From: Nitzschia sp. pyKryTriq1
Taxonomy: Eukaryota > Bacillariophyta > Bacillariophyceae > Bacillariales > Bacillariaceae
DNA length: 48,000 bases
NCBI GenBank assembly: GCA_956465555.1
Contig: OY101133.1
Span: forward strand, 32,001 to 80,000
Direction of reading: 5' to 3'
Positions 1-48,000 of this stretch are shown here, in pieces (positions within the stretch are counted from its first letter, which is position 1; every line of letters starts with the position of its first letter). Both the position numbers and the translations under genes were made by a program. A model generated the notes under the pieces. It saw only the letters and a program-made list of their open reading frames with translations. It did not search any database and was not told the DNA's origin.

Positions 1-322
1 GATAAGCAAGAGCGAACCTAGGGAACTGAAACATCTTAGTACCTAGAGGAAAAGAAAGTAAAAAACGATTCCCTTAGTAGCGGCGAGCGAAACGGGAAAA
101 GCCTAAACTTAGTATTAACTAAGGGTAGCGGGACAATTGTTAATCGATTAGGACAATTAGACGAAGAAGTTGGAATGCTTCACCAAAGAGAGTGATAGTC
201 TCGTAGTCGAAAGTTGAAATAATCAAATTGAATCCCAAGTAGCATGGAGCACGTGAAATTCCGTGTGAATCAGCGAGGACCACCTCGTAAGGCTAAATAT
301 TCCTGAATGACCGATAGTGAAA

Positions 323-354
<32 letters not shown>

Positions 355-918
355 GGGAGGGGAGTGAAAAGAACATGAAACCATAAACTTACAATCAGTA
401 GGAGGACGACTAAAACGTCTGACTGCGTGCCTGTTGAAGAATGAGCCGGCGACTTATAGGTAGTGGCAGGTTAAAGCAGAGAATGCTGAAGCCATAGTGA
501 AAGCGAGCCTGAATAGGGCATATGTCACTGGTTATAGACCCGAACCCGGATGATCTAACCATGGTCAGGTTGAAGCTTAGGTAATACTAAGTGGAGGACC
601 GAACCGACTGATGTTGAAAAATCAGCGGATGAATTGTGGTTAGGGGTGAAATGCCAATCGAATTCGGAGCTAGCTGGTTCTCCCCGAAATGCGTTTTGGC
701 GCAGCGATAAATGTTATAACTTAGGGGTAAAGCACTGTTACGTATGCGGGCTGGTAATTCGGTACCAAATCGTTGCAAACTAAGAATACTAAGTGGAAAG
801 TTTATCAGTGAGACTGTGGGGGATAAGCTCCATTGTCAAGAGGGAAACAGCCCAGAGCACCAGTTAAGGCCCCTAAATAATTGCTAAGTGATAAAGGAGG
901 TGGGAGTGCGAAGACAAT

Positions 919-954
<36 letters not shown>

Positions 955-1723
955 GTGCGTAATAGCTCACTGATCGAGTAAACCTGCGCCGAAAATGTAC
1001 GGGACTAAGTAATTTGCCGAAACTGTGCGATATATTTGAAATATATCGGTAGGGGAGCGTTCTGTTGTAGGTTGAAGTATTAGCGGAAGCGGATATGGAC
1101 GAAGCAGAAGTGAGAATGTCGGCTTGAGTAACGAAAATATAGGTGAGAATCCTATACCCCGAAAACCCAAGGTTTCCTCCGGAAGGCTCGTCCGCGGAGG
1201 GTAAGTCAGGACCTAAGGCGAGGCTGAAAAGCGTAGTCGATGGACAACGGGTTAATATTCCCGTACCATTATTTGTTGATATCGAGGGACGGAGAAGGCT
1301 AAGCTGGCCGAATTTTGGTTATCGGTTTAAGCGTTCGAGATGTTGAGAAACGGAGAAAACGTTTTGAGTTGAGGCGTGAGTACGAGATGCTACGGCATTG
1401 AAGCAGTGTATGTCAGACTTCCAAGAAAAGCTCGCAATGTCATAAATAAATAATGCCTGTACCATAACCGACACAGGTGGGTAGGTAGAGTATACTAAGG
1501 GGCGCGAGATAACTCTCTCTAAGGAACTCGGCAAAATGACTCCGTAACTTCGGGAGAAGGAGTGCCCTATTTATAGGGTTGCAATAACAAGATCCAAGCA
1601 ACTGTTTACCAAAAACACAGGTCTCCGCTAAGTCGTAAGACGATGTATGGGGGCTGACGCCTGCCCAGTGCCAGAAGGTTAAAGAAGTTGGTTAGCATTT
1701 GCGAAGCTGATAACTGAAGCCCT

Positions 1724-1806
<83 letters not shown>

Positions 1807-2058
1807 TGATTTGGATACTGTCTCAGAGAGGGACTCGGTGAAATAGACTTGTCTGTGAAGATGCGGACTACCTGCACCAGGACAGAAAGACCCTATGAAG
1901 CTTTACTGTAACTTGAAATTGAAATTGGACTTTATTTGCGCAGTATAGGTGGGAGGCGTTGAGTTTATTCTTGCGGGAATTTAGGAGCCATCAGTGAGAT
2001 ACCACTCTGGTAATGTTAGATTTCTAACTTTGTATCATAATCTGGTCAAAGGACAGTT

Positions 2059-2092
<34 letters not shown>

Positions 2093-2286
2093 CAAATGGT
2101 AACGGAGGCGTACAAAGGTTTCCTCTGAACGTGTAGAAATCGTATCTAGAGTGTAAAGGCATAAGGAAGCTTGACTGTGAGACTTACAAGTCGAGCAGGG
2201 ACGAAAGTCGGTCTTAGTGATCTGACGGTGCTGAGTGGAAAGGCCGTCACTCAACGGATAAAAGTTACTCTAGGGATAACAGGCTG

Positions 2287-2355
<69 letters not shown>

Positions 2356-2391
2356 GGTAGTACGTCCCAAGGGTTGGGCTGTTCGCCCATG

Positions 2392-2439
<48 letters not shown>

Positions 2440-2563
2440 ATATCCGGTGTAGGCGTTAGAATATTGAGAGGAGCCTTCTTTAGTACGAGAGGACCGAGAA
2501 GGACATACCTCTGGTGTACCAGTTATCGTGCCAACGGTAAACGCTGGGTAGCTATGTATGGAG

Positions 2564-2597
<34 letters not shown>

Positions 2598-2722
2598 CAC
2601 CTCAAGATAAGTATTCTCATCATGTAAGTGAGTAAGGTCACGGGAAGACTACCCGTTTGATAGGCATTAAGTGTAAATGTAGTAATATATGAGCTGAGAT
2701 GTGCTAACAGACCGAGGACTTG
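1..2722 (+). rRNA. rrl: 23S ribosomal RNA (5' end outside window)
   Basis: This is the plastid large-subunit rRNA, read on the plus strand. The window opens inside domain I: the 'AGTAGCGGCGAGCGAA' block is at about 77-92. Landmark conserved stretches follow in order, including 'TAACTATAACGGTCC' near 1739, the peptidyl-transferase region 'GGGATAACAGGCTGAT' near 2273, and the sarcin-ricin loop AGTACGAGAGGACC at 2482-2495. By comparison with bacterial 23S, roughly 130-170 bases are missing upstream of the window. The 3' end near 2722 is set by the end of conserved sequence and by the hairpin that follows. No intron or homing-endonuclease insertion is seen, and the small ORFs inside are not genes. 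Confidence 0.97.
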
Positions 2723-2732
2723 AATTTTTTCT

Positions 2733-2761
2733 AGTTACTAGTGAGGAAACTCCTAGTAACT
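2733..2761 (+). promoter_or_regulatory. 23S-5S spacer hairpin
   Basis: A 9-bp perfect stem (AGTTACTAG with CTAGTAACT) is capped by a GAG-GAAA-CTC inner hairpin. It sits in the short spacer between 23S and 5S rRNA and is probably an RNA-processing signal for the precursor. The function is inferred from position. Confidence 0.6.
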
Positions 2762-2766
2762 TTTTG

Positions 2767-2890
2767 CTTTGGTGTTTCTAGTGTACTTAGCGGAACCACA
2801 CTGATCCATCTCGAACTCAGTTGTGAAACGTTATAAATCGACGACGATACTTGGAGGGGGACCTCCTGGGAAAATAGTTCAATGCCAAAG
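2767..2890 (+). rRNA. rrf: 5S ribosomal RNA
   Basis: This is the 5S rRNA of the large ribosomal subunit, about 45 bases after the 23S gene. The ends pair as helix I (CTTTGGTG with the ATGCCAAAG end), and the internal 'GATCCATCTCGAACTCAG' stretch is the hallmark of bacterial-type 5S. The exact ends may be off by one or two bases. Confidence 0.9.
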
Positions 2891-2927
2891 TTTTTAAAAA
2901 AATAATTTAAAAAACTAAGAAAATTTG

Positions 2928-2957
2928 TTGACATATAAATATTTCTATTTCTATAAT
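2928..2957 (+). promoter_or_regulatory. Sigma70-type promoter for ORF471
   Basis: TTGACA at 2928-2933 and TATAAT at 2952-2957 are both exact consensus hexamers, separated by 18 bases. A start of transcription near 2964 would give an 88-base leader before the GTG at 3052. This is the best promoter match I saw in the window. Confidence 0.7.
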
Positions 2958-2969
2958 TTAGTTTAAGAT

Positions 2970-3046
2970 AGAGTCGAGTAATATTATAATATTAACAAAA
3001 GGAGTATGTCTTATTACTCTCTACATTAAAACGGCAAACCGACTCT
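2970..3046 (+). promoter_or_regulatory. Structured 5' leader of ORF471
   Basis: Nested complementary segments are visible: AGAGTC (2970-2975) with GACTCT (3041-3046), and GAGTAATA (2976-2983) with TATTACTC (3012-3019). The inner loop holds AAAAGGAG (2997-3004), an excellent ribosome-binding sequence, followed by ATG at 3006. That ATG opens only a seven-codon frame ending at 3029. The fold could control access to the downstream GTG at 3052. The pairing is seen; the regulatory role is inference. Confidence 0.45.
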
Positions 3047-3051
3047 TTATC

Positions 3052-4467
3052 GTGAACGAGCTGTGGGTTTTCATACCACTCTTTTCATCCATCAGCATTC
3101 TTTTGATGGTTTGGTATTTTAAGAATTTGCTCAAATCGATTGAGCACACGGATGAGAATGCGGTCAATAAATTTGATGATCCGCACCACCCACCGTTTCA
3201 GAAACCCAAAAAGTTTCGGAACCAAAAAGTGAGAAATAATTCTTATAACTTATCGTCAGCTCGTAATAATAGAACAGCGTCAAAAATTTACCATGGGGCT
3301 GTAGGAAATAACCTAACTCTATTATCATTACGAGCAGGTGACCAGATTTTTACGATGGCACTTGAAAAAGATCAAGTTGAAATTGCAAAGGTAGCAGTTA
3401 AGAAGTTGAGAAAACTTATAATTGCCTTCTTCAAAAAAATTTTAGGGATAACTGTTCCAAAAGGACGTCTTCCCCTAAACTTAACCGCAGAATACTATGA
3501 CTGCATAGTGTCTGGAGGGAAGAATAATTTTCGGTTATTGGAGCATAAAGTTTTACGTGAGACGGTAACAAATTTATACAAAAAATTTGAAACAAACAAG
3601 GGGCTCATATTTATTACCGAATTTGCCCTTTGTCAGATAGCCCGAGAGAAGGGCCTGATCCAGCCCGTAAGACAATTATTCAAAGTATTTACGGTGAGTG
3701 TAGAAACTAACAGTATCGTCGTTACACTTGGCAGAGCAATTATCTCGTTGCTCATAGTTGGTGCTAGCTCGGGGTTAATTATAACACTTGGGACACTTCT
3801 AATAACGGGAGTTCTGAGCTATGTAAGCTTAGTCACGAGTGGTCTAAACTTATTTATAGGCTTGCTAGGGGCGTTCAAGAACGCAGAAATCGTTATGGAT
3901 ATTCCGCATATTTCAACCGTTGCAATCCCGCAACAGTCAATTAGGGATATTCGGCCACGTATCTCGGATATTACCGAAGTCGTGATAGTTCCGAGCCAGT
4001 TTGCCAAAAAAACAATTTTAATCGAGAAACCCAAGGCTTATGAGGATAGCTACTGCATGTTACCGGATCAACGTCTAGGGAATCCCAACTGTAAAAAAAC
4101 TTTTATTACAGTTGAAGCCAAGAGTGATATGCATATGCAAGACGATTTCTGTAACGTGGGTGTGGATGTCGTGACATTGATAAACGTCGTCAAATTCGAA
4201 ACGGTTGACTTGGGTGATGAGCCTAAACACCTTTGTAGTATTAGATTAAAATCATCCGAGCCAAGTCAACCAAAGCTCAACCCGCAAACTAAACCAACAA
4301 CAACCCTTGGCCGACCGAAAATGAAAGGAACTAAGGTTCGACCAAACGCAAAACAAGTCAACATGTTGACGAAATTCAAAGATAGTGATACTTTGAATGT
4401 TCCCAAAATTACGGGGGATCACGAATACCCTAGTAATCAGGAAACTAAAAACAGTCTCAAAAACTAA
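3052..4467 (+). CDS. Unrecognised 471-aa membrane protein (family A, copy 1)
   Basis: I do not recognise this protein. The frame opens with GTG; an in-frame ATG at 3106 is an alternative. From the GTG there is a hydrophobic N-terminal segment (about residues 5-21), a basic polar stretch (30-80), a conserved block GNNLTLLSLRAG (85-96), then CIVSGGKNN (151-159) and ITEFALCQIA (188-197). Two long membrane segments follow (about 229-275), then IRPRISDITEVVIVP (300-314), SYCMLPDQ (333-340) with a further Cys at 347, and a polar, Lys/Pro-rich tail. It is homologous to the ORF at 46870-48000. Two 60-base samples gave 22 and 28 G+C, against 12 in ccsA next door, which suggests transfer. No catalytic motif is evident. 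It lies directly after the rRNA operon with its own promoter and terminator. Confidence 0.75.
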   Translation: MNELWVFIPLFSSISILLMVWYFKNLLKSIEHTDENAVNKFDDPHHPPFQKPKKFRNQKVRNNSYNLSSARNNRTASKIYHGAVGNNLTLLSLRAGDQIFTMALEKDQVEIAKVAVKKLRKLIIAFFKKILGITVPKGRLPLNLTAEYYDCIVSGGKNNFRLLEHKVLRETVTNLYKKFETNKGLIFITEFALCQIAREKGLIQPVRQLFKVFTVSVETNSIVVTLGRAIISLLIVGASSGLIITLGTLLITGVLSYVSLVTSGLNLFIGLLGAFKNAEIVMDIPHISTVAIPQQSIRDIRPRISDITEVVIVPSQFAKKTILIEKPKAYEDSYCMLPDQRLGNPNCKKTFITVEAKSDMHMQDDFCNVGVDVVTLINVVKFETVDLGDEPKHLCSIRLKSSEPSQPKLNPQTKPTTTLGRPKMKGTKVRPNAKQVNMLTKFKDSDTLNVPKITGDHEYPSNQETKNSLKN

Positions 4468-4495
4468 AAATATCAAGCTACTCCGCTTGATATTT
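4468..4495 (+). terminator. Hairpin terminator after ORF471
   Basis: A perfect 10-bp stem AAATATCAAG / CTTGATATTT with an 8-base loop begins right after the ORF471 stop codon. It lies between two convergent genes (ORF471 and ccsA) and may serve either. Confidence 0.7.
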
Positions 4496-4573
4496 TCGTT
4501 AAACTAAAGACCAGAAAAGAAGTTCTAAGATCTGATCAATTGATATTAGATCGTCCACTATTATAAAGTTGTA

Positions 4574-5512
4574 CTATGAAATCCAACCATAACTATGCAA
4601 ACCTTTTCCTAAGAAGTTAACACCTAAATAACAAATCCAAATAACGAAAAATCCTAAACCGCCTAAAATAGCAGTTCTTTTTCCTTCCCATCCTTTAGTA
4701 AGACGAGCATGTAAATAGGTAGCAAAGACTAACCAAGTTATTAAAGCCCAAGTTTCTTTCGGATCCCAACTCCAATAAGAACCCCATGCTTCATTAGCCC
4801 ATACCCCGCCTGAAATAATACCAATTGTTAAAAATGGAAAACCTAAACCAATGATTCGGTAACTCCAATTATCTAAACTTTGCAACAATTTTAATTTTCC
4901 TAATTCGGAAATTTCATTTGAAGATGATATTACTTTGGCTTCGTAATAATCCAACATTACATTATATAAAGGTAATGAAGAGTTATCAACTAATTTTAAA
5001 TCAATATCTTTATAACGAGAGATAACTAAAAATAATATGCACAATAATGAACCCATTATTAATGTAGCATAACTTAATAACATCATACTTACATGCATCA
5101 TTAACCAATTTGACTGTAAAGCTGGAACTAAAGGACTTGATTTTTGCATTTCGGGTGAAAGTGTTAAATTTGCAAATCCGTTAATTAACAAAGTAATTGG
5201 AATCAAAATTGCCCCAATTAATCTGCTATTTGTCTTAGTTTCAAGATATAAGTAAATTGTTAAAAGTGTCCAGGTTAAAAATAGTAATGATTCATATAAG
5301 TTACTTAATGGAAAATAACCTGCGATAATCCATCTTGAACAAAGAATAAAAAAAAGTAATAAATTAGCTACTATCGTACTAGTACGGCCAATGGTAGATA
5401 TGAACAATTTTTCTCGAAAAAAGAATAAATTAACCCAATAAATTACCATTGCAAATAGTAGAACTCCAAAAACGATATTTGATAAAAAATTTTGAATTTC
5501 ATTCCAATCCAT
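4574..5512 (-). CDS. ccsA: Cytochrome c biogenesis protein CcsA
   Basis: CcsA exports or holds haem and, with Ccs1, attaches it to c-type cytochromes on the lumen side of the thylakoid (System II). The 312-residue protein is largely membrane segments. It carries the haem-binding tryptophan-rich motif WGSYWSWD at 243-250, with His140, His268 and His306 near membrane edges as likely haem ligands (family knowledge). The length is normal for plastid CcsA. It is convergent with ORF471 and divergent from rps6. The partner gene ccs1 lies about 9 kb away at 14687. Confidence 0.95.
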   Translation of the reverse strand: MDWNEIQNFLSNIVFGVLLFAMVIYWVNLFFFREKLFISTIGRTSTIVANLLLFFILCSRWIIAGYFPLSNLYESLLFLTWTLLTIYLYLETKTNSRLIGAILIPITLLINGFANLTLSPEMQKSSPLVPALQSNWLMMHVSMMLLSYATLIMGSLLCILFLVISRYKDIDLKLVDNSSLPLYNVMLDYYEAKVISSSNEISELGKLKLLQSLDNWSYRIIGLGFPFLTIGIISGGVWANEAWGSYWSWDPKETWALITWLVFATYLHARLTKGWEGKRTAILGGLGFFVIWICYLGVNFLGKGLHSYGWIS

Positions 5513-5641
5513 GAAATTTCTCCAATAAAGAATTTCTATATAAATTATATAATATTATTGTACTAAAAAATCACGTGATTATAAAGTATTCTAAAACCTT
5601 TTATTTGAAATTCAGAATCTAAATAATTTTTAAAATTTCAA

Positions 5642-5671
5642 TTGACATTAAATTATATGTGCAAGTATGAT
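5642..5671 (+). promoter_or_regulatory. Promoter upstream of rps6
   Basis: TTGACA (5642-5647) and TATGAT (5666-5671) are separated by 18 bases, about 30 bases upstream of the rps6 start, in the divergent ccsA-rps6 spacer. Confidence 0.6.
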
Positions 5672-5700
5672 AGCCTTAATTTAAATAAAATTACAATATT

Positions 5701-5994
5701 ATGTCAATATTACGAAAATATGAAATAATGATTCTGTTAACAGAAGAATTTAATGATAGTGAATTAAAAACATGGGTATTTAATTATGCAAAGAATTTAC
5801 GAAAATTTAATGTTTGTGATATTTCCGTAATTTCTCGTGGAAAACATAATTTATCTTATCAAATCAATAATCGAGCTAAGGGAAATTATATTCAATTAAA
5901 TTTTTCTAGCATGCCCAAATATATCAATAATTTTTCAAACGTTTTAAAAATGGATTCAAATGTTATCCGATTCTTAGTCTTCAACAAACAATAA
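5701..5994 (+). CDS. rps6: Ribosomal protein bS6
   Basis: Small-subunit protein that binds the platform of 16S rRNA together with bS18. The 97-residue product starts with the characteristic 'RKYEIMILLTEEF' strand and ends with 'VIRFLVF', the usual bS6 core. It is short but complete for a plastid S6. A consensus-like promoter lies just upstream and a hairpin follows the stop. Confidence 0.85.
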   Translation: MSILRKYEIMILLTEEFNDSELKTWVFNYAKNLRKFNVCDISVISRGKHNLSYQINNRAKGNYIQLNFSSMPKYINNFSNVLKMDSNVIRFLVFNKQ

Positions 5995-5999
5995 AACAT

Positions 6000-6043
6000 A
6001 ATTGAGTCATTATAACAATTTTATCGTTATATGACTCTCAATT
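6000..6043 (+). terminator. Hairpin after rps6
   Basis: AATTGAG...ATAAC pairs with GTTAT...CTCAATT through an imperfect stem of about 16 bp with small bulges, starting 5 bases after the rps6 stop and ahead of trnN. Confidence 0.5.
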
Positions 6044-6099
6044 ATTAAGAAAAGTTTTGCAATTGATAAAGAAATATGGTAACATTTACCTATAATAGG

Positions 6100-6171
6100 T
6101 CCTCAGTAGCTCAGTGGTAGAGCAATCGGCTGTTAACCGATTGGCCGTAGGTTCAAGTCCTACCTGGGGAG
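6100..6171 (+). tRNA. trnN(guu): tRNA-Asn(GUU)
   Basis: A full cloverleaf can be drawn: acceptor TCCTCAG with CTGGGGA, D-loop AGCTCAGTGGTAGAGC, anticodon loop CTGTTAA with anticodon GUU, and T-arm GTAGGTTCAAGTCCTAC. The CCA end is not encoded. A TATAAT at 6091-6096 just upstream may be its -10 element. Confidence 0.96.
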
Positions 6172-6192
6172 TACAAATCAAACTAAAATTTC

Positions 6193-7002
6193 ATGAATAA
6201 TAATAATATTGATAAATTAAGAATTGGTAATAAAGTTTTTAATTCTCGCTTAATGTTAGGAACTGGAAAATATAAAACACCCCAGAATGCGAATGATAGT
6301 ATCCAAGCGAGTGAATGTGAGATTGTCACCGTTGCAATTAGACGTCTTCCAATTAATTTAAAAAATGATAACTCAAGTTTTTTAAATCGTTTAGATTGGG
6401 ATAAATTATGGTTATTACCAAATACAGCAGGTTCCCAAACGGCCGATGAGGCAATTCGAATGGCATTTTTAGGTCATGAATTAGCTTGTCAAATTGGTCA
6501 AGAAGAAAACTTCTTTGTTAAATTAGAAGTAATATCCGATCCTAAGTATTTACTACCGGATCCAATTGGGACATTAAAAGCAGCGAAGTTTTTGATAAAA
6601 AAGGGATTTACCGTTTTACCCTATATAAATGCAGATCCTATGTTAGCATTACATTTAGAAGACTTAGGTTGTGCAACAGTTATGCCTTTAGGTTCACCGA
6701 TTGGCTCTGGACAAGGATTAAACAATTTAGCAAACATTAAAATTATTATTGAAAATGCACGGGTTCCAGTTATTGTTGATGCGGGGATTGGGGCTCCAAG
6801 TGAAGCGACAGCTGCAATGGAATTAGGAGCAGAGGGTATTTTACTAAATACAGCTGTAGCACAATCCAAAAATCCTGCTCAAATGGCTTTAGCGATGAAT
6901 CTCGGCGTTAAAGCAGGGAGATTAGCTTATTTGGCTGGTCGGATGGAAAAAAAACACTACGCAACATCAAGTTCTCCTTTAAATCAAATTAGTAAATTTT
7001 AA
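6193..7002 (+). CDS. thiG: Thiazole synthase ThiG
   Basis: ThiG makes the thiazole ring of thiamine in the stroma from deoxyxylulose phosphate, dehydroglycine and ThiS thiocarboxylate. The 269-residue TIM-barrel protein shows the family's LMLGTGKY near residue 20, [12 protein letters not shown] (76-87), and VKLEVISD, in which Lys110 is the likely Schiff-base lysine. The phosphate-binding glycine region [11 protein letters not shown] and [11 protein letters not shown] follow. The length is normal. Its sulfur-carrier partner thiS is encoded at 19186. Confidence 0.96.
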
Positions 7003-7071
7003 CAAAATCAAAAATTTTCCTCTAAACTTCTATGTAATTAATTTTTAACATATTCAAAAGATTTTAGTTAA

Positions 7072-7121
7072 TATAATATTCTATAAGCGATTTTTAAAAA
7101 TAATTCATATAGAATATTATA
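7072..7121 (+). terminator. 14-bp inverted repeat after thiG
   Basis: TATAATATTCTATA (7072-7085) is the exact reverse complement of 7108-7121, with a 22-base loop. It lies 70 bases past the thiG stop and is a plausible terminator or RNA 3'-end stabiliser. Confidence 0.5.
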
Positions 7122-7171
7122 AAACAGATAAGTTAACTCAACAGGATAGAAATTTTAAGATAAAATATGTA

Positions 7172-7339
7172 ATGCCCAAAAAAAGAATAGTGAATCCTTT
7201 GGATAAAGTAGAAATGGAGATGCTTGTAGTTATTTTTATGTTACCAGTAAAAGAAGATACCTCTGCAATAGATTCTTTATTGTTTACCGGTAAGTTCGTG
7301 CCTATTGAGTGTACATATAATCGAGTTAAGGAAGATTAG
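7172..7339 (+). CDS. Small hypothetical ORF, 55 aa
   Basis: An ATG-initiated frame of 55 codons lies in the long thiG-psbY spacer. The product begins MPKKRIVNPLDKVEME, has a short hydrophobic run (LVVIFMLP) and ends in VKED. I do not recognise it. The same frame is open upstream back to 7049, so the real coding stretch, if any, may be longer or be the remnant of a larger gene. Part of it (7261-7320) has 21 G+C in 60 bases, richer than the surrounding spacer. No good ribosome-binding site is seen. It may be spurious. Confidence 0.3.
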   Translation: MPKKRIVNPLDKVEMEMLVVIFMLPVKEDTSAIDSLLFTGKFVPIECTYNRVKED

Positions 7340-7391
7340 ATATTTTAAATATTTAAAAAATAAATTTTTTTAGTTTTTATAGAAAGACAAT

Positions 7392-7448
7392 TTATATTAT
7401 ATTATTGTAATTTCATATATAATATTGAATTATAATAATATAATATAA
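7392..7448. repeat. AT-only 15-bp inverted repeat before psbY
   Basis: TTATATTATATTATT (7392-7406) is the exact reverse complement of 7434-7448. It lies 50 bases upstream of psbY. Both arms are pure A/T, so chance is not excluded. Confidence 0.4.
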
Positions 7449-7497
7449 AAATATTATTTTTCAAACTTAAATACTTATATATAAAGGATTTTCATTT

Positions 7498-7611
7498 ATG
7501 GATACTCGTTTATTTGTAATTGCTGTACCATTATTAATTGCAGCATCATGGGCATTATACAATATTGGCCGTTTAGCTATTCAACAAGTTCAACGTTTAT
7601 CACGTAGTTAA
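7498..7611 (+). CDS. psbY: Photosystem II protein PsbY
   Basis: PsbY is a small single-span thylakoid protein at the edge of photosystem II near cytochrome b559. The 37-residue product [13 protein letters not shown]... has one hydrophobic segment (about residues 5-20), the conserved [11 protein letters not shown], and a basic C-terminus. AAGGA at 7484-7488 is a suitable ribosome-binding site. A hairpin follows at 7639-7670, so it is probably its own transcription unit. Confidence 0.9.
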
Positions 7612-7638
7612 TGTCTAAAATGTGAAATCAAAGAATAA

Positions 7639-7670
7639 ATTTCAATAAATAACTTTATTTTTATTGAAAT
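7639..7670 (+). terminator. Hairpin after psbY
   Basis: ATTTCAATAAA (7639-7649) pairs exactly with TTTATTGAAAT (7660-7670), an 11-bp stem with a 10-base loop, 27 bases after the psbY stop. Confidence 0.55.
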
Positions 7671-7707
7671 AAATTATAATCTAAGATAACAAATATTAAA
7701 ATTATAA

Positions 7708-7959
<252 letters not shown>

Positions 7960-7966
7960 ATACGAA

Positions 7967-8013
7967 AATTCTCATATTAAATTTAAAATATAACGAATAT
8001 TAATATGAGAATT
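7967..8013 (+). terminator. Hairpin after psaC
   Basis: AATTCTCATATTAA (7967-7980) is the exact reverse complement of 8000-8013, a 14-bp stem starting 8 bases after the psaC stop. Confidence 0.65.
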
Positions 8014-15952: not shown

Positions 15953-16039
15953 AAAGTAGTGATGAAATTTTCATTATGGTTTTATAATTCTATATAACAA
16001 GTTTAAAACTTGGGAAGAATTATAATAATAAAAATTTTT

Positions 16040-17122
16040 ATGACAGCAACTTTAGAAAGACGTGAAAGCGTTTCTGTATGGGAACGTTTCTCTGCATGGA
16101 TTACTAGTACTGAAAACCGTTTATACATCGGTTGGTTTGGTTGTTTAATGTTCCCAACATTATTAACAGCAACTTCTTGTTACATCATTGCGTTCATCGC
16201 AGCTCCTCCAGTTGATATCGATGGTATCCGTGAGCCAGTAGCAGGTTCTTTATTATACGGTAACAACATCATCTCTGGTGCGGTTATTCCTAGTTCTAAC
16301 GCTATCGGTATGCACTTCTACCCAATCTGGGAAGCAGCTTCAATCGATGAGTGGTTATACAATGGTGGTCCTTACCAATTAATCGTATTACACTTCTTAT
16401 TAGGTGTAGCTTCTTACATGGGTCGTGAATGGGAATTATCTTACCGTTTAGGTATGCGTCCTTGGATCTTCGTAGCATTCTCTGCTCCAGTAGCAGCTGC
16501 TTCTGCTGTATTCTTAGTATACCCAATTGGTCAAGGTTCATTCTCTGACGGTATGCCTTTAGGTATTTCTGGTACTTTCAACTTCATGTTAGTATTCCAA
16601 GCTGAGCACAACATTTTAATGCACCCATTCCACATGGCTGGTGTTGCTGGTGTATTTGGTGGTTCTTTATTCTCAGCTATGCACGGTTCATTAGTAACAT
16701 CTTCTTTAATTCGTGAAACAACTGAAAACGAATCTACTAACTACGGTTACAAATTCGGTCAAGAAGAAGAAACTTACAACATCGTTGCAGCACACGGTTA
16801 CTTCGGTCGTTTAATTTTCCAATACGCTTCGTTCAACAACTCTCGTGCTTTACACTTCTTCTTAGCTTTATGGCCAGTTTTAGGTATCTGGTTAACTGCT
16901 ATGGGTGTTAGTACAATGGCGTTCAACTTAAACGGTTTTAACTTCAACCAATCAGTAGTTGATTCTCAAGGTCGTGTTATCAACACATGGGCTGACATCA
17001 TCAACCGTGCTGATTTAGGTATGGAAGTAATGCACGAACGTAACGCTCACAACTTCCCATTAGATTTAGCTTCAGGTGAAGTATTACCAGTTGCTTTAAC
17101 AGCTCCAGCTGTTAACGGTTAA
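16040..17122 (+). CDS. psbA: Photosystem II reaction-centre protein D1
   Basis: D1 binds the primary electron donor, pheophytin, QB and the oxygen-evolving Mn cluster. The start is ATG 16040 ([17 protein letters not shown], 360 residues); a TTG ten codons upstream in the same frame is rejected. All key residues sit at standard positions: Tyr161 (YZ), Asp170, Glu189, His190, His198 (P680), His215 and His272 (iron), Ser264 (QB pocket). Asp342-Leu-Ala344 precedes a 16-residue C-terminal extension that CtpA would remove. Codon use is distinct from neighbours (many C-ending codons such as TAC, TTC, AAC), as expected for a highly translated gene. No intron. A 17-bp hairpin follows. Confidence 0.99.
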
Positions 17123-17138
17123 TTTGCTAACTTCTAAG

Positions 17139-17174
17139 ATTTCTAAACTTTTATATTTATAAAAGTTTAGAAAT
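17139..17174 (+). terminator. psbA terminator hairpin
   Basis: ATTTCTAAACTTTTATA (17139-17155) pairs exactly with 17158-17174 across a 2-base spacer: a 17-bp inverted repeat starting 16 bases after the psbA stop. It is likely the stabilising 3' end of the psbA mRNA. Confidence 0.75.
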
Positions 17175-17598
17175 TACTATTTATTTTTTAACTTTTCAAA
17201 AACTTTGTTTCAAGATTAATTTAAATAGTTTTCATTATATTATATTGCCATGAATTATGAGATCATTTTGAAAAACTTGGTTTGTAGAAAAGATTTTCTC
17301 TATTGCAATGAAATAAAAATAAGACGAAAGATAAAATATTTATAAATTTTAAGATCGTAAAAATTCGGATATATCATCAAATACTTAGAATTAGAATTTA
17401 CAGTAGTCGTGGTTTTTGAGCATTGTTTGATATGTTTTAATAAGGCGCAACTTATCTAAATCTTTGCTCTCTGGAGATTTAGATAAGTTACAATAACTTG
17501 GTTTAAATTTATCAACATATACATTTAATAGACGCGGAAAATTTATTCGTTATCATTAGAATGTAGATTTGTTACTTCCTTATTTACTTAACCTCTTG
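17175..17598. other. Gene-free spacer psbA-ycf35
   Basis: I see no protein gene, tRNA or known small RNA in these 424 bases; the signatures of RNase P RNA, SRP RNA and tmRNA were looked for and not found. A perfect 14-bp inverted repeat at 17449-17489 is the main structure. It could be the end of an unannotated transcript. Confidence 0.55.
17449..17489. repeat. 14-bp hairpin in psbA-ycf35 spacer
   Basis: AACTTATCTAAATC (17449-17462) is the exact reverse complement of 17476-17489, with a 13-base loop. It is about 110 bases from the ycf35 stop, so it may end ycf35 transcripts on the minus strand or an unknown plus-strand RNA. Confidence 0.5.
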
Positions 17599-17982
17599 TT
17601 AAGCATTTTTCCATCTTTCTAAAGTTATTGTATTTGACCCATCCGAATTTTGGTGATATTTTACTGGTTGGAAACCGATTTTTTGACTTTCGCCAATAAC
17701 AACTTCACCTGCATATTGCTGTGCAATACGATCAATAAAGTTTTCAGTTGGATATGGTTGTTCCCAAAAGCTAATATCGGCAACTAAATCATACTCTTGG
17801 CCATTCCAACAAAAGCTAATATCATAGCCATTAGACTGAGGGATCACTAATTTAATAGAAGAAGAATTTGAATTTGGAACTGACTCTTCCTGTTGTTTAT
17901 GTACAATATTTAATCTATTTAACGCTTTTTCTAAATAAAATAAATTTTGAAAACGAGTCTTGATATGTGTAAAATGTGACAT
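17599..17982 (-). CDS. ycf35: Conserved plastid protein Ycf35
   Basis: 127-residue protein of the Ycf35 family, shared by cyanobacteria and red-lineage plastids and without a known function. It begins [14 protein letters not shown] and contains [21 protein letters not shown] and a QQYAGEVV segment near the end. No membrane segment is seen. It is first in a minus-strand reading block with rps16 and rps4 upstream. Confidence 0.88.
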
Positions 17983-18063
17983 AAAATTTTAATAGTAAAT
18001 AACTTTACCTATAATTATATCACTTTTAAACGTTATATTGTAGTATATATTTAAACTTTTAAT

Positions 18064-18297
18064 TTAAACTATATCTGCCTTCTTTAATAAATTTAAAACT
18101 GTTTCAGTTGGTTTTACACCATACTTTAACCATTTTTTAATTTTTTCAGAATCGAATTTATAATTTTTTGAAATTGGATCGTAGTAACCAACTTCTTCAA
18201 TAGGTCGCCCATCGCGTCTTGTTGTATTTTCCATAATAACTAATCGATAAGAGGGAGAACGTTTTCTACCAATCCGTTTTAATCGTAATTTTAACAT
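18064..18297 (-). CDS. rps16: Ribosomal protein bS16
   Basis: Small-subunit assembly protein, 77 residues. MLKLRLKRIGRKRSPSYRLV and EEVGYYDPISK are diagnostic, and the KPTETVLNLLKK end is typical. It follows rps4 on the minus strand with a 64-base gap, likely co-transcribed. There is no intron, unlike the land-plant gene. Confidence 0.96.
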   Translation of the reverse strand: MLKLRLKRIGRKRSPSYRLVIMENTTRRDGRPIEEVGYYDPISKNYKFDSEKIKKWLKYGVKPTETVLNLLKKADIV

Positions 18298-18361
18298 AAA
18301 TGTAATATATAGAAATTAATGATTTATTTAGTTGAGACTTTAATAAAATTGTAAGTTTAAA

Positions 18362-18976
18362 TTATCGACGTGAATAATACTCAATAACTAGTAATTCATC
18401 TAATTGTAATTGAATATCATCTCTATTGCAATAATCTAATACTGTTGCTTTCAATGAGCTTGCATCAAATTTTAAATTAGACGGAACTTCACTTCGTGGA
18501 TTATTTTTTAAATTGGCACTAACCAAATTTTTCGAAGTAGATCTTTCTTTTACACTAATAATATCATTAAGACGACATTGAAAACTTGGAATATCAATAA
18601 CTTTATTATTTATAGTAATATGGCCGTGGTTTACTAATTGACGAGCTTGCGCGATAGTACTTGCAAATCCTAACGTAAAACAAAGAGTATCCAAGCGCAT
18701 TTCTAATAACTGAAGTAAAATTAGACCGGTAACACCTTTTCGTCTTCGAGCTTCTTTTACATATCTGAATAATTGACTTTCACTTAAGCCATAATTAAAT
18801 TTTAGTTTTTGTTTTTCTTCTAAACGAATACCGTATTCTGTTAACTTTTTACCAGTATCCGGAGAATTTCCATCTTTTCCTGGACGATTTAATTTTTTTG
18901 ATTTTTTTGTTGTTAAACCTGGTAATGAGCCTAATCGTCGACTAATTTTTAATTTAGGTCCTCGATAACGTGACAT
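18362..18976 (-). CDS. rps4: Ribosomal protein uS4
   Basis: uS4 is a primary 16S-binding protein at the 5' domain. The 204-residue product begins [16 protein letters not shown]. The S4 RNA-binding domain ([20 protein letters not shown], then [14 protein letters not shown]) lies at about 87-150. The length is normal. It heads the rps4-rps16 pair, and trnH lies just upstream on the same strand. Confidence 0.97.
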
Positions 18977-19038
18977 AAAAATAGATTTAATGTATAAACA
19001 ATTTTTTATAAATACTTAAGATAGAAAATATCAACAAG

Positions 19039-19112
19039 GGCGAGTGACCGGACTTGAACCGGCGAATGGTGGAATCACAACCCACTGCCTTAACCACTTG
19101 GCCACACCCGCC
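19039..19112 (-). tRNA. trnH(gug): tRNA-His(GUG)
   Basis: On the minus strand, acceptor GCGGGTG pairs with CACTCGC and the anticodon loop TTGTGAT carries GUG. The extra G(-1) typical of tRNA-His is encoded (G opposite the discriminator C). The T-arm is CCGGTTCAAGTCCGG. Confidence 0.95.
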
Positions 19113-19185
19113 ATATTGTCTTGATTAATATTCTATCAGTTTTCATTATTAATCGTCTAGGTTATTTTTCAAAAAGTTACAAAAT

Positions 19186-19398
19186 ATGACAAAATTTAAA
19201 AATTTTTCTGTAAATGGTCAGTCTTATTGTGTCGAAGCAAGTATTACACTTTTCGATCTAATTAATTATTTGAATTTTAATGATTCATTATTAGTTTTAG
19301 AATATAACAATTTAATATGTGATAAAAAAAATTGGGGAAAAAATTTCATTAAAGATCAAGATAAAATTGAAATTGTAACAATTGTAGGAGGAGGATAA
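19186..19398 (+). CDS. thiS: Thiamine sulfur-carrier protein ThiS
   Basis: Ubiquitin-like carrier whose C-terminal glycine is converted to a thiocarboxylate and delivers sulfur to ThiG. The 70-residue product shows the beta-grasp pattern and ends in VTIVGGG, containing the required Gly-Gly end. It is encoded alone between trnH and pheT on the opposite strand, and a hairpin overlaps its stop codon. The activating enzyme ThiF is not in this window. Confidence 0.92.
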   Translation: MTKFKNFSVNGQSYCVEASITLFDLINYLNFNDSLLVLEYNNLICDKKNWGKNFIKDQDKIEIVTIVGGG

Positions 19399-19422
19399 TT
19401 CTATAAAATTTATAGAATTATC
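19394..19422. terminator. Bidirectional hairpin thiS/pheT
   Basis: GATAATTCTATAAA (19394-19407) is the exact reverse complement of 19409-19422. It overlaps the thiS stop codon, is followed by TTTT on the plus strand, and lies between the convergent thiS and pheT genes. Confidence 0.65.
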
Positions 19423-19433
19423 TTTTATAAAAT

Positions 19434-21554
19434 TTAAACTCGAATCGTTGCATCAAATTTTTTCATTAGTAAATTGGTTAGATTATTAACTATCATTTCT
19501 ACTTTTTCAGTTTGTAAAGTTTCAAAATTTGACTGAAAAACAAGCTGTAGACATAAACTTATATGTTGTGGTGGAATTGATTTACCACGATACTCATCTA
19601 ATATATTGACTTCTTTTAAAAAATGACTTCCATTTAGATATAATAATTCTTTAATCTTACTAAATAAAATATTATCTTTAACAATAAAAGATAAATCTTT
19701 AATAATTTTTGGATATAGTGAATATTCTTGGTATACACTTAATTTATTTTGTTGAATTTGATGTTTAAGGACATCAAAATTAAATTCAAATAAATAGATA
19801 TCTATTGGAATATTTAATTTGTTGGCTAAAATTGGAGAAATTTGTCCAAATAGCCCTACTTTTGTCCCATTTGATAAAAAGATTTCAGCAGTACAATAGA
19901 CATGAAATATATTTTTTTCTTTAATGGGTTTATAAGATTTCCAGTAAGTAATAATATTTAATTTTTTAAAGACCGTTTCAATTTTTCCTTTTGCTCCAAA
20001 CCAACCCAATGTAGTAGATGATGTTGACCAATCAGATTTCGTTTTTAATCCGCCTAAAATTCCAGCTACTAATTCAATTTCACTAATAGTTGAGGATGAA
20101 TTTAAAGAAAAAGCATGTCCATATTCAAATCCCTCAAGAATTGAATTACCTTTTTTTACATTTTCTTCTACGGCTTTAAGCAAATTTGGTAATAAACTTG
20201 AACGTAAATTTGAATAATCTTGAACTAATGGATTAATTAATTTTATATCATTTTTTAAGTAGGTTTCTTTCGTAACTAATGAATATTGAATTAATTCATT
20301 TAAACCTAAATTAACAAGACACGAAGTCAATTTTTTACGAGTTTGATAATCAAAATCTTCTTTTCCAATATTATTAATTTTTGGTAATCTGGTTAAAAAT
20401 TTATTAAACCCATAAATTCGCCCAATTTCTTCAATTACATCAATTTCACGAACAATATCATCACTTCGTAACGAGGGAATTGTAATATTCCATTTTAAAC
20501 TAATACTATCATAATCTACCTTAAATTTTAATCGTTCTAAGGCATCTGTAATAATTTGAGCTGAAAGATAGTTTTCTTCCATATTTTCTGTATTTTGAAT
20601 TGGGCCTAAAACTTGTTTCACCCGTTCATAGTTCAGTTCAATTTTTTTAACGGGCTCATTCATAAGCTGAGCAACACTATGAAGTTTACAAGTTAACTTA
20701 GGATTTGCAATTCTTAATAACGAAATAAAACGATACGTCGATTCTAGCAAAGTTGTATTTTTAAGTGATTTTTCATAGCGAGAAGACCTATCTGTTCGTA
20801 GCCCTAACATTCTCGATTCTTGTCGAATTTTTGCAGCATTAAAAATACTAGCTTCAACTAATAAAGTTTTTGTAGTAGAGGAATATTTAGTCTCGTCACT
20901 TGAAATAATTCCAGCTATACTAATTAGTAGATCATTAGCTTGAATAACTAAAATTGATTCGTCTAATGGATAAGTAACTCCGTTGCTTGCTAAAAAATTT
21001 AATGAGTTCTTTACAGGAGTCAAAAATAATTGAACTTGAGCCTGATTTAATTTAGAATAAATTTTATCAAAATCATAAAATTCAAGGGGATAACCTGTTT
21101 CGATTAAAATATAGTTTTGAAAATCAACTAGATTATTATTTACTGGAAATCCAGAAGCAATTAGTTTTTGCTGTAACCATTTAGGCGATGTGAAATCACT
21201 TAAATTTTCAATACTTAAAGCAATAAATCCCGAGCAGTCATTTTGAATTGCCAAATTTGAATGAAACTTTTCAAATTGTTGGGACCATGGGTAAATCTTC
21301 GTTGAATAATTTAATTTTTTAGGAATAGAATTTAATAAGGCTGCAATTTCTAATGAAAGACCTTGAATCGATAAACTATCTGAGCGATTTGCTGTTGCCG
21401 AAATTTCGAATGCCGTTGTTTTTGCATTTGAGATTTCAATTTCTAAAACTTCTTCAACTTCAAATCCACCAAGCGTCAATTTGTTAATTAAATCATCTAT
21501 GTCTACTGTTTCAAGATTTACTAATTCGTTAATCCATCTTAATGATATTTGCAT
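19434..21554 (-). CDS. pheT: Phenylalanyl-tRNA synthetase beta subunit
   Basis: PheRS beta works with an alpha subunit (not in this window) to charge plastid tRNA-Phe. The 706-residue product has the N-terminal helix domain, FEISATANRSDSLSIQG at about 48-64, B3/B4 editing, B5 domains (VREIDVIEEIGRIYGFNKF), the catalytic-like core, and a C-terminal FDX-ACB domain (YPKIIKDLSFIVKD). Bacterial PheT is near 800 residues. Here the EMAP/OB-fold tRNA-binding insert that normally separates GGFEVEEV from the ANRSDSLS region is absent. psb28 lies 29 bases upstream on the same strand. Confidence 0.94.
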   Translation of the reverse strand: MQISLRWINELVNLETVDIDDLINKLTLGGFEVEEVLEIEISNAKTTAFEISATANRSDSLSIQGLSLEIAALLNSIPKKLNYSTKIYPWSQQFEKFHSNLAIQNDCSGFIALSIENLSDFTSPKWLQQKLIASGFPVNNNLVDFQNYILIETGYPLEFYDFDKIYSKLNQAQVQLFLTPVKNSLNFLASNGVTYPLDESILVIQANDLLISIAGIISSDETKYSSTTKTLLVEASIFNAAKIRQESRMLGLRTDRSSRYEKSLKNTTLLESTYRFISLLRIANPKLTCKLHSVAQLMNEPVKKIELNYERVKQVLGPIQNTENMEENYLSAQIITDALERLKFKVDYDSISLKWNITIPSLRSDDIVREIDVIEEIGRIYGFNKFLTRLPKINNIGKEDFDYQTRKKLTSCLVNLGLNELIQYSLVTKETYLKNDIKLINPLVQDYSNLRSSLLPNLLKAVEENVKKGNSILEGFEYGHAFSLNSSSTISEIELVAGILGGLKTKSDWSTSSTTLGWFGAKGKIETVFKKLNIITYWKSYKPIKEKNIFHVYCTAEIFLSNGTKVGLFGQISPILANKLNIPIDIYLFEFNFDVLKHQIQQNKLSVYQEYSLYPKIIKDLSFIVKDNILFSKIKELLYLNGSHFLKEVNILDEYRGKSIPPQHISLCLQLVFQSNFETLQTEKVEMIVNNLTNLLMKKFDATIRV

Positions 21555-21583
21555 TTTTGAATTTTTATAATTTTTTTAGTTAA

Positions 21584-21931
21584 TTAACTAGCTTTAGTAA
21601 ATACTAACCCATTTGTATCGCCATATCGTTCCATAAATCTCATAAATCTATCCCATGCTTTAGGACTTTTCATAATATAAATAGATTCAATAGTTTCAGG
21701 TTTTCCATTAATAAAGCGAGCATTCACGTCTCGAGTCTCTAAAATTCCTTCTTCATCAATTAAATACATTCCCGTAATCTCCCCTTCTTTGGCTGTACTT
21801 TTATCTAATATATTTGGATTTTTAAAACGAAAAGTTGCTGTTCCTGTACTTCCATCTCTCGATCGTGTTAAACGAACATCGGGTAAAACTTTTTCATCTA
21901 ACCCTTTAATAAACTGAATTTTAGCTTCCAT
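21584..21931 (-). CDS. psb28: Photosystem II assembly factor Psb28
   Basis: Psb28 binds early photosystem II intermediates (around the CP47/RC47 complex) on the stromal face and protects them during assembly. The 115-residue product begins [21 protein letters not shown], followed by [11 protein letters not shown] and a C-terminal [14 protein letters not shown], all family features. There are no membrane segments. It sits upstream of pheT on the minus strand and is probably co-transcribed. Confidence 0.95.
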
Positions 21932-22043
21932 AATTTTCTAATTATTTTAGATTAATAATCTATAATAAGTATTTTCATTATGCAATTTCCATAAATTTAA
22001 AACAACCCTTTTGTTTGTAAAAATTTTTAAAGTAATGTGAAAA

Positions 22044-22115
22044 CTGGGGTGGCAGGATTCGAACCTGCGAATGGCGGAGTCAAAGTCCACAGCCTTACCA
22101 CTTGGCGACACCCCA
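22044..22115 (-). tRNA. trnQ(uug): tRNA-Gln(UUG)
   Basis: On the minus strand, acceptor TGGGGTG pairs with CACCCCA, and the anticodon arm GTGGA-CTTTGAC-TCCGC gives UUG. The T-arm is GCAGGTTCGAATCCTGC. Like bacterial tRNA-Gln it starts with U1. Confidence 0.95.
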
Positions 22116-22158
22116 AAATCTTATTATAAATAAGATTCAATCATAATAATAACAGTAT

Positions 22159-22232
22159 TGGGCAAGAAGGGATTCGAACCCCTGACACCGTAGTTCGTAG
22201 CCACGTGCTCTAGTCCACTGAGCTACAAGCCC
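22159..22232 (-). tRNA. trnR(acg): tRNA-Arg(ACG)
   Basis: On the minus strand the anticodon arm CGTGG-CTACGAA-CTACG gives ACG, whose first base is presumably edited to inosine. The acceptor GGGCTTG against CTTGCCC leaves two adjacent U-U mismatches at pairs 5-68 and 6-67. Plant plastid trnR(ACG) has a comparably imperfect acceptor, so this does not make it a pseudogene. Confidence 0.93.
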
Positions 22233-22382
22233 AAAACATGATTCTAATTTTTAATTATACTAGAAATATTATAAATTAGTAAAGTTAAAAAAAAGTAAAG
22301 AAATTGAATTTTAAGCTTGTAAAATTTATACTTTTTTGGTTAGAGTAATTTTTTAAATATTATAAATATAATTGCGAAAAAG

Positions 22383-23978: not shown

Positions 23979-23990
23979 TATTAATTGGAA
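23969..23990. repeat. 22-bp perfect palindrome at groEL stop
   Basis: The sequence at 23969-23990 (TTCCAATTAAT and its reverse complement) is self-complementary and spans the groEL stop codon. It may act with the following hairpin as a 3'-end signal. Confidence 0.5.
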
Positions 23991-24003
23991 ATTAAATTGA
24001 ATT

Positions 24004-45141: not shown

Positions 45142-45177
45142 ATATCTTATTGAGAAAGATTTGAAATAAGATATTTA
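45139..45177 (+). terminator. clpC terminator hairpin
   Basis: TAAATATCTTATT (45139-45151) pairs exactly with AATAAGATATTTA (45165-45177). The left arm begins with the clpC stop codon. Confidence 0.7.
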
Positions 45178-45246
45178 TATTTCTTTCTGAATTTCCATTC
45201 GATAAAAATTTTATTTGGTGTATCGATAGGGATCAAATTCTCCAAC

Positions 45247-45296: not shown

Positions 45297-45363
45297 ATTG
45301 TAAAATCTTTTTAGTACTTCAAACGATCTAAACTTTAGTAGGAAGGAAACAAAGTATATAAGA

Positions 45364-46777: not shown

Positions 46778-46811
46778 CTAAACAAAACAATATATCTATA
46801 GTGAATACTCT

Positions 46812-46848
46812 AATAGGAATTGATAGGATCTTATAATTTTTTCCTATT
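46812..46848 (+). terminator. Hairpin between broken ORF and ORF370
   Basis: AATAGGAA (46812-46819) pairs with TTCCTATT (46841-46848), followed by a run of T. It would terminate transcripts of the broken plus-strand ORF just before the convergent ORF370. Confidence 0.5.
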
Positions 46849-46858
46849 TTTTTTCACG

Positions 46859-46894
46859 AAAACTTCCCACTAATCAAAATTAGTAGGAAGTTTT
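46859..46894 (-). terminator. Hairpin overlapping the ORF370 3' end
   Basis: The 16-base arms at 46859-46874 and 46879-46894 match at 15 positions; the odd pair is a G-U in minus-strand RNA. The stem includes the last codons and stop of ORF370 with a 4-base loop. Confidence 0.6.
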
Positions 46895-48000
46895 TCAGCT
46901 TTTTGAGGCGATGAAACTGGTTGAGCTTCATATTCACGATCAAAATACTCCTTTTTATGAGCATTTTTAGAATTCCGATCAATTTTCGGAGAAGTTGCCA
47001 TTCTCGCTGTGGGCCGTTTTACCTCATACTTTGGACCATCTTTGAAGTCTGTTTGGTCAAAGATCTCTAGTTTTTCCATGGTAAGGATTTTTTGCTTACG
47101 AAAATCGTAGGCAACATGAGTTACAATTTTAACAATTTGTTCTTGTTCTTGGCATGTTGGAGTCCAAATTTGACCTGGTAACATGCATATGTAACTATGG
47201 TGAGCGTCCTTTTTGGTAACCGGCATTTCGATTTTATCCTTTCGAGGCATTGGCAGTACGATTAATTCTGCCATATCGGGCCTACGCGGTTCGATTTGCT
47301 CAATTGAAATCTCACTTATTGGACTAGTTGCGATAGGTGTAAAAGCGCTTCTCATAAGAGGGTCGCCCGTAAAATAAACCAACATAATACCAATAAAAAT
47401 TTGTATATACTGAAGCAGTGCAGCATATCTAATAATTAATATCGTATGAAGGCTTATAGTTGTAAGAACAAAGCCAGCACCGACTCCAGTCCATAGACCG
47501 AGTTTAATTAGAAACGTCCTCGGGTCAACAATCGAGAAATTCACAAGTCCAGATAGAATATTGAAACCTACTATACTTCGGTTCGCTTTTGCAAGATAAC
47601 AGAGGGCATGGGGTGTGATATACAGTAACTTTTTGTTATTTAACAAATTTTTGTACTGACCAAGAATAAGGTCTGATAACTTTTTATCGTCAACAAATTT
47701 TACCTTATTTTCATCACCTTGGATATGACAAGTATTAAACAACTTCTCGTCCAGACTCTTTTTTGTTAAGAGAATCTGCTCCTCCGGGTCAGGTGCTGCA
47801 TCAGGTAGAGCAAACCTTTTTTGACTCGCTACCTCTTGTTCATATAAATCCGTATTGACATACAGATATTGAACAAAGCGTTCGTAGGGATATTTTAGAA
47901 AGCGATAGACTTTCCTTAAACTATCCCGGAATGTTGTATTTTCAGCATTTTCGAGAATGCTTTCACCCGCTCTTAATCTCAAGAGCGCGAAATTATTTCC
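46870..48000 (-). CDS. Unrecognised membrane protein (family A, copy 2), 5' end outside window
   Basis: I do not recognise this protein. The minus-strand frame runs from the window edge to a stop at 46870, giving 376 residues with no start inside the window; a TTG at 47982 is not a convincing start because homology continues upstream of it. Read from the edge it opens GNNFALLRLRAG, aligning with GNNLTLLSLRAG of the ORF at 3052. Further shared blocks are YITPHALCYLAK, two central membrane segments, RRPDMAELIVLP and SYICMLPGQ with a following Cys. The tail is polar and basic. A 60-base sample (47221-47280) has 27 G+C, well above plastid genes nearby. It is probably missing about 85 N-terminal residues by comparison with the other copy. 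Confidence 0.72.
   Translation of the reverse strand, partial: GNNFALLRLRAGESILENAENTTFRDSLRKVYRFLKYPYERFVQYLYVNTDLYEQEVASQKRFALPDAAPDPEEQILLTKKSLDEKLFNTCHIQGDENKVKFVDDKKLSDLILGQYKNLLNNKKLLYITPHALCYLAKANRSIVGFNILSGLVNFSIVDPRTFLIKLGLWTGVGAGFVLTTISLHTILIIRYAALLQYIQIFIGIMLVYFTGDPLMRSAFTPIATSPISEISIEQIEPRRPDMAELIVLPMPRKDKIEMPVTKKDAHHSYICMLPGQIWTPTCQEQEQIVKIVTHVAYDFRKQKILTMEKLEIFDQTDFKDGPKYEVKRPTARMATSPKIDRNSKNAHKKEYFDREYEAQPVSSPQKAEKLPTNFD

Follow-up and report, generated by a model that had tools for sequence, protein, structure and literature searches.

Two open reading frames (ORFs) of a diatom plastid genome, ORF 1 and ORF 2, encode a pair of distantly related, predicted membrane proteins and are foreign, probably plasmid-borne genes. 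We favour, at a little better than even, the reading that both derive by integration from two plasmids, related but already divergent and of a kind reported to enter diatom plastids, and persist as remnants with open frames. Plasmids would be the source of both remnants, each of which would consist of one membrane-protein gene and a conserved DNA site just past its stop codon. Small plasmids are a documented route of foreign DNA into diatom plastids, and these two divergent genes, which have cysteines, membrane segments and a 3′ element in common, offer a test object for the key residues of such proteins and for the DNA site that an element of this kind uses.

The window analysed here is the whole stretch of 48,000 nucleotides, bases 32,001-80,000 of a 123,508-base plastid contig in a 40.65-Mb assembly of 20 contigs. 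Its gene names are presumptive, being assigned from gene order, except for families named by searches. Genome searches covered bases 1-8,000, 16,001-24,000 and 32,001-80,000 of the plastid contig, and "the covered genome" below is meant in this sense. The window is diatom plastid DNA, as judged from its gene content and from the Pfam family YCF90, a diatom marker found in it at E 2e-70; Triparma laevis, of the sister group, is described as having no ycf88-ycf90 (PMC10307964), and on this ground a host from the Parmales was rejected.

A distant two-member protein family

Both ORFs are present where the initial annotation had placed them (Table 1), and from base composition an open frame of 471 codons, the length of ORF 1, has a chance probability of 7e-15. 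Their homology had been proposed by eye, and alignment bears it out: BLASTP matches the two proteins at E 4e-18 with 86 of 362 positions identical (24%), and their Smith-Waterman score of 214 lies far above those of 1000 full shuffles (mean 37.3, sd 4.9, maximum 62) and of 1000 shuffles within 10-residue blocks that keep the hydropathy order (mean 47.6, sd 10.1, maximum 93), while a reversed-protein control scores 34. Conservation spans about 310 aligned residues, over which the motifs named in the annotation recur in the same order: GNNxxLLxLRAG, a cysteine followed by a G/N-rich segment, NKxLxxITxxALCxxA, the hydrophobic stretch, PRxxDxxE, and CMLPxQ followed by PxC. Only the longer form SYxCMLPxQ had to be corrected; CMLPxQ occurs in both proteins, SYxC in ORF 2 only, and ORF 1 reads SYC. 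By these alignments ORF 1 and ORF 2 are homologous and form a distant two-member family. Searches of the covered part of the 40.65-Mb genome matched just these two loci at E up to 10, and no third.

Table 1 Features of the window discussed in the text
Feature	Position	Strand	Remark
23S and 5S rRNA	1..2890	+	Directly upstream of ORF 1
Promoter-like site TTGACA-18-TATAAT, sigma70-like, 12 of 12	2928..2957	+	Between rrf and ORF 1
Shine-Dalgarno-like AAAAGGAG	2997..3004	+	Read directly from the sequence
ORF 1 (P0001)	3052..4467	+	471 codons from GTG
Hairpin, 11-bp stem, 6-nt loop	4468..4495		Directly past the ORF 1 stop
Shared non-coding element, copy 1	4493..4561	+	Starts 25 nt past the ORF 1 stop
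Decayed ORF, about 300 codons	45750..46659	+	Convergent with ORF 2, between clpC and ORF 2
Shared non-coding element, copy 2	46798..46862	-	Starts 7 nt past the ORF 2 stop
ORF 2 (P0002)	46870..48000	-	At least 376 codons; 5′ end beyond the window edge, N-terminus outside the covered sequence

The ORF 1 protein opens with a hydrophobic N-terminus (residues 1-24) and a basic linker, followed by the GNN...LRAG domain with C151 and C194, a hydrophobic stretch at 217-275 that is long enough for two helices, an acidic C-domain (pI 5.3) that holds CMLPxQ...PxC with C335 and C347, and a basic tail (398-471); linker and tail each have a pI of 10.2. ORF 2 repeats this order from GNN onward, with its hydrophobic stretch at 164-212 and a less basic tail (10 K+R against 7 D+E). 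The CM motif lies about 60 residues past the hydrophobic stretch. The annotated picture of a membrane protein with conserved cysteines agrees with the presence of this stretch in both proteins and with the alignment of all four ORF 2 cysteines (C91, C134, C272, C283) to ORF 1 C151, C194, C335 and C347; ORF 1 has two more, at 367 and 395. Basic residues that flank a membrane helix mark its inner side (the positive-inside rule). Because basic residues follow the first helix, the sequence suggests that the ORF 1 linker would lie on the stromal side, as would the tail if the hydrophobic stretch forms a hairpin of two helices. AlphaFold models from two runs on two-row alignments came out without confidence (mean pLDDT 30.5 and 33.3).

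No known family in the libraries searched fits the pair, in keeping with the initial annotation, which had recognised none. With both proteins as queries, Pfam returned no match up to E 1, PADLOC none and PHROG a single one at 0.11; in NCBIfam ORF 1 had only two matches, 0.051 and 0.079, far under the cut-offs, and in the PDB, where ORF 1 was the sole query, the two matches both had E above 1. A tblastn search of PLSDB plasmid records was empty for both proteins, as was a search of phage records with ORF 2 only, and scans of viral contigs and genome contigs for related loci confirmed none. Motif patterns did pick out 4, 3, 6 and 2 viral stretches and 23 genome stretches, numbers that we judged to be at chance level without a computed expectation. 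When both proteins were compared by tblastn with 34 loci (L016-L049) the best E was 0.33, and with 13 loci (L050-L062) it was 0.037, for L057, at the same motif that had picked that locus. No relative came to light in the plasmid and phage records or in the searches of IMG/VR and GTDB, and diatom plasmids probably lie outside those sets.

A shared non-coding element past both stop codons

The most useful new fact relative to the initial annotation is an element of 65-69 nt shared by the two 3′ flanks. It was first detected by blastn (E 3.9e-4, with 71% identity across 69 columns), and its copies agree in 51 of the 65 positions that align (78%). None of 2000 shuffles that preserve dinucleotides came up to the alignment score of 43 (shuffle mean 16.6, sd 2.6, maximum 30). 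Among 9,539 110-nt windows on both strands, the best match to the ORF 1 flank was the ORF 2 flank, with the next unrelated one at 35; the reverse search, among 9,535 such windows, returned the ORF 1 flank as best, with the next unrelated one at 30. A core derived by comparing both copies, AAGATCNNATCAATTNNTATTAGA, was found nowhere in the viral contigs, and copy 1 had no match in PLSDB. A DNA search of the covered genome with copy 1 returned copy 1 alone; it missed copy 2 and is therefore no proof against further copies.

The element could be a transcription or RNA-processing signal under selection on both mRNAs, a reading that concerns the element alone, does not compete with those on the origin of the genes, and seems to us possible though on the doubtful side. 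In its favour, the copies start only 25 and 7 nt past the stops, the 11-bp hairpin stands behind the ORF 1 stop, and the whole 106-nt ORF 1 3′ flank folds better than its shuffles (z -2.42). However, prediction gives the two copies different folds, neither of them clearly better than those of shuffles on the gene strand (z -0.37 and -1.50), a terminator scan lists the hairpin on the minus strand only, and the core has no third site in the window within 3 mismatches. The ORF 1 3′ flank drew a single Rfam hit, to GibS, which at 20.9 of 115 bits is sub-threshold and was read as chance. The difference between the folds speaks, short of proof, for a DNA site, perhaps one of recombination or replication, over an RNA structure. 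That the element is 78% kept while four-fold sites have been randomised suggests function or recent sharing.

Foreign codon usage and old divergence

GC3 is 0.403 in ORF 1 and 0.316 in ORF 2, against 0.16 (sd 0.039) in the 38 other genes of the window, which ranks ORF 1 above all 38 and ORF 2 above all but psbA, the maximum at 0.328. Codon adaptation, measured against these same 38 genes, is 0.385 for ORF 1 and 0.433 for ORF 2, whereas the 38 genes have a mean of 0.69 and a minimum of 0.58. ORFs of contig C19 (n=26, from 40 kb), taken as mitochondrial from an rRNA match and its size, have a GC3 of 0.185; the two genes differ from both the plastid and the C19 value and therefore match neither organelle. 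Because their codon usage is unlike that of resident genes, the data suggest that both genes are foreign and arrived recently in the plastid.

The divergence between them is old. At four-fold sites in identical residues, 9 of 34 are equal against 9.5 expected, which means that these sites are saturated, and dN/dS between the copies is for that reason inestimable. Residues conserved in spite of this saturation support past selection on both proteins, and dN/dS would have been low over most of the history of both copies. The initial annotation had read a real, selected function from the conserved cysteine-bearing part; past selection stands, while present use in the plastid does not follow, as codon usage suggests a recent arrival. 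Since foreign codon usage goes together with old, saturated divergence, both facts are most simply reconciled if the relatives had diverged before they entered the plastid, each in an event of its own.

Transfer from the nucleus or from bacteria without a plasmid as carrier is another conceivable origin of the genes, which we consider very unlikely. Their GC3 is indeed intermediate, above the organelle values and below that of long ORFs in two 10-kb samples of contigs taken as nuclear, C1 (0.571, n=5) and C5 (0.511, n=3). Against this, the covered genome holds no further match, six genomes picked via pattern loci had none at E 0.01, and a narrow sample, 391 genomes of one bacterial class, gave only five weak matches at E<=0.01 (4.8e-4 to 0.0095), all in model columns 229-312, the membrane part. 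Moreover, non-coding DNA held in common past the stops rather resembles the site of a mobile element.

Genomic neighbourhood

ORF 1 sits downstream of rrf and upstream of ccsA. Between positions 2700 and 4700 there are 6 promoter-like sites where 4.8 are expected, and the site between rrf and ORF 1 alone scores 12 of 12. An in-frame ATT at 3013, at a suitable distance of 8 nt past AAAAGGAG, would extend ORF 1 to 484 aa, and an ATG at 3006 opens just 7 codons in another frame; translation may start at the ATT or the GTG, or involve a frame change.

ORF 1 and ORF 2 could belong to a resident, fast-evolving diatom plastid family with an envelope or thylakoid role, for example as a carrier accessory or assembly factor, and diatom-specific like ycf89 and ycf90. 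We regard this as distinctly unlikely. Both frames are open over their covered length, cysteines and a hydrophobic hairpin are conserved, and the 12-of-12 site precedes ORF 1, but the codon usage of the pair is unlike that of the 38 other genes. The diatom plastid genes ycf88, ycf89 and ycf90 have no known function, and being plastid-encoded in diatoms they resemble the pair; YCF90, in contrast, is present separately in the window. To our knowledge none of ten listed diatom ycf genes lies at the place of ORF 1. An identification of ORF 1 as ycf89 itself was rejected: in the diatoms described, the inverted repeat carries trnP and ycf89 and then rns-trnI-trnA-rnl-rrf, so that ycf89 lies beside trnP and upstream of rns, whereas ORF 1 is downstream of rrf (PMC8268801, PMC10307964). 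Unconserved ORFs or tyrC are described after rrf in diatoms (PMC8268801, PMC11584902).

ORF 2 is found on the far side of clpC and is oriented toward that gene. The covered sequence holds one copy of the plastid rRNA, that of the window. If a second rRNA operon stands beside ORF 2, as seems probable, the two genes would flank the small single-copy region at its mirror ends. Such a placement could have arisen if both were once a single inverted-repeat gene in two identical copies, the repeat then shrinking and the copies diverging in place while their flank stayed similar; among the origins weighed here we hold this one to be the least probable. It would account for the apparent mirror arrangement, in which ORF 1, next to rrf, looks into the single-copy region and ORF 2 does so from the opposite end, past clpC, as well as for the similar 3′ flank, and diatom inverted repeats are described as varying in extent (PMC8268801, PMC10307964). 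Yet genes resident for long enough to reach saturated divergence would not be expected to keep a GC3 away from the plastid value, and where the proteins have dropped to 24% amino-acid identity, a neutral flank would not be expected to remain 78% identical.

Between clpC and ORF 2 we found a decayed ORF. Its frame carries 6 disruptions (stops and frame changes) against 11.8 (sd 1.9) in shuffles, none of 300 of which reach 6, with limits that were set after reading the frames. GC is 0.35 at 45,700-46,780, which includes the decayed ORF, and 0.25 in the adjoining spacer at 45,150-45,640. Although alike by eye, it was rejected as a third family member: frameshift-tolerant alignment on the plus strand scored 36 with ORF 1 and 34 with ORF 2 against shuffle means of 33.8 (scores reached by 16 of 60 and 29 of 60 shuffles), and on the minus strand 32 and 33 (47 of 60 and 37 of 60), whereas a positive control of the ORF 1 protein against ORF 2 DNA scored 201. 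Pfam searches with six pieces of it yielded only Fiber_head_BAdV-4 (E 0.22, 12.5 of 27 bits), which is sub-threshold and was read as chance. The spacer behind clpC (45150-45749, minus strand) has 6 disruptions against 9.4, with 6 of 300 shuffles as low, and is possibly another decayed ORF.

Relation to diatom plasmids

The initial annotation had raised a possible link to ORFs of pennate-diatom plasmids. Plasmids pCf1 and pCf2 of Cylindrotheca fusiformis carry ORF482 and ORF484, 54% identical to each other (PMC2873285), and plastids have been reported to contain decayed or partial copies of them, among these orf141 of K. foliaceum and a partial ORF484 in Halamphora calidilacuna (PMC2873285, PMC6608930). 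The Haslea silbo plasmids pHSC1-3, of 3.5-4.4 kb, each carry serC together with orf480, orf513 or orf515, and two of them also orf361 or orf350 (PMC8070900). Relatives of various diatom-plasmid ORFs are described from raphidophyte, dinotom, haptophyte and green algal plastids (PMC9235467). Haslea orf480, orf513 and orf515 and Fibrocapsa ORF513 may belong to the ORF482/ORF484 group. The cited descriptions state no function for ORF482/ORF484 or the Haslea ORFs and assign a role to the recombinases alone.

Set beside these descriptions, membership of ORF 1 and ORF 2 in the ORF482/ORF484 family is plausible, and this relation decides how new the present family is. The length of ORF 1, 471 aa from the GTG or 484 from the ATT, resembles that of ORF482 and ORF484 (482-484, taking the ORF names as lengths) and is near the 480-515 aa class of plasmid ORFs; ORF 2 is incomplete. 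Further likenesses are the diatom plastid location, the foreign origin, a decayed ORF nearby and the occurrence of two divergent versions, here at 24% identity against 54%. The decayed ORF matches Haslea orf350 and orf361 in length and could correspond to them. The link to plasmids is circumstantial: it draws on the foreign codon usage, on the length class of the ORFs, on an insertion next to rrf, on the shared 3′ element and on the decayed neighbour.

Weighing against a plasmid source are the lack of relatives among plasmid and phage records and in IMG/VR and GTDB and, unlike in the diatom plasmids, the absence of a recombinase gene from the covered sequence next to ORF 1 or ORF 2. The covered genome, including bases 1-8,000, 16,001-24,000 and 32,001-80,000 of the plastid contig, contains no serine recombinase (PF00239). 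As a separate observation, the single tyrosine recombinase match (PF00589, 32.3 bits) lies in an open frame of 197 aa on contig C1, at C1:1809428-1809730 (L019).

Under the preferred reading, remnants of two plasmids, a role can be sketched for the protein. It would reside in a plastid membrane, turn its basic linker and tail toward the stroma and tether plasmid DNA to the membrane for keeping or segregation; after integration that role would be idle and the gene drifting. This DNA-tether role is proposed because of charge and topology alone, and we hold it rather unlikely. A broader proposal, to which we give similarly low credence, is that the pair and the 3′ element stand for plastid mobile elements of a family yet to be described. 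Each unit would combine a membrane-tethered maintenance protein with a conserved DNA site, and two divergent lineages would have used that site to enter both borders between inverted repeat and small single-copy region in the same plastid genome. Points against the preferred reading and the role sketched under it are the less basic ORF 2 tail and the low-confidence models and, for the shared element, unrelated windows that reach 35 against its 43 and a genome search in which copy 1 failed to bring up copy 2.

Among other organelle-encoded proteins, the H-TM-CM family, encoded on the plasmid pLPM from Leucomyxa plasmidifera mitochondria (PMC11528492), is likewise described as a paralogous ochrophyte organelle plasmid family with a predicted membrane helix, a conserved cysteine and no outside relatives found. 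Its shared domain comprises about 40 aa (His, membrane helix, CysMet), however, as opposed to the 310 or so aligned residues of ORF 1 and ORF 2, and ORF 1 departs from the pattern in having no His before its N-terminal hydrophobic stretch and its first Cys at 151. A 456-aa membrane protein of Heterosigma akashiwo (PMC2410131) is similar in being plastid-encoded in an ochrophyte, of comparable length and of unknown role; by description it has seven predicted membrane segments, whereas ORF 1 has about three.
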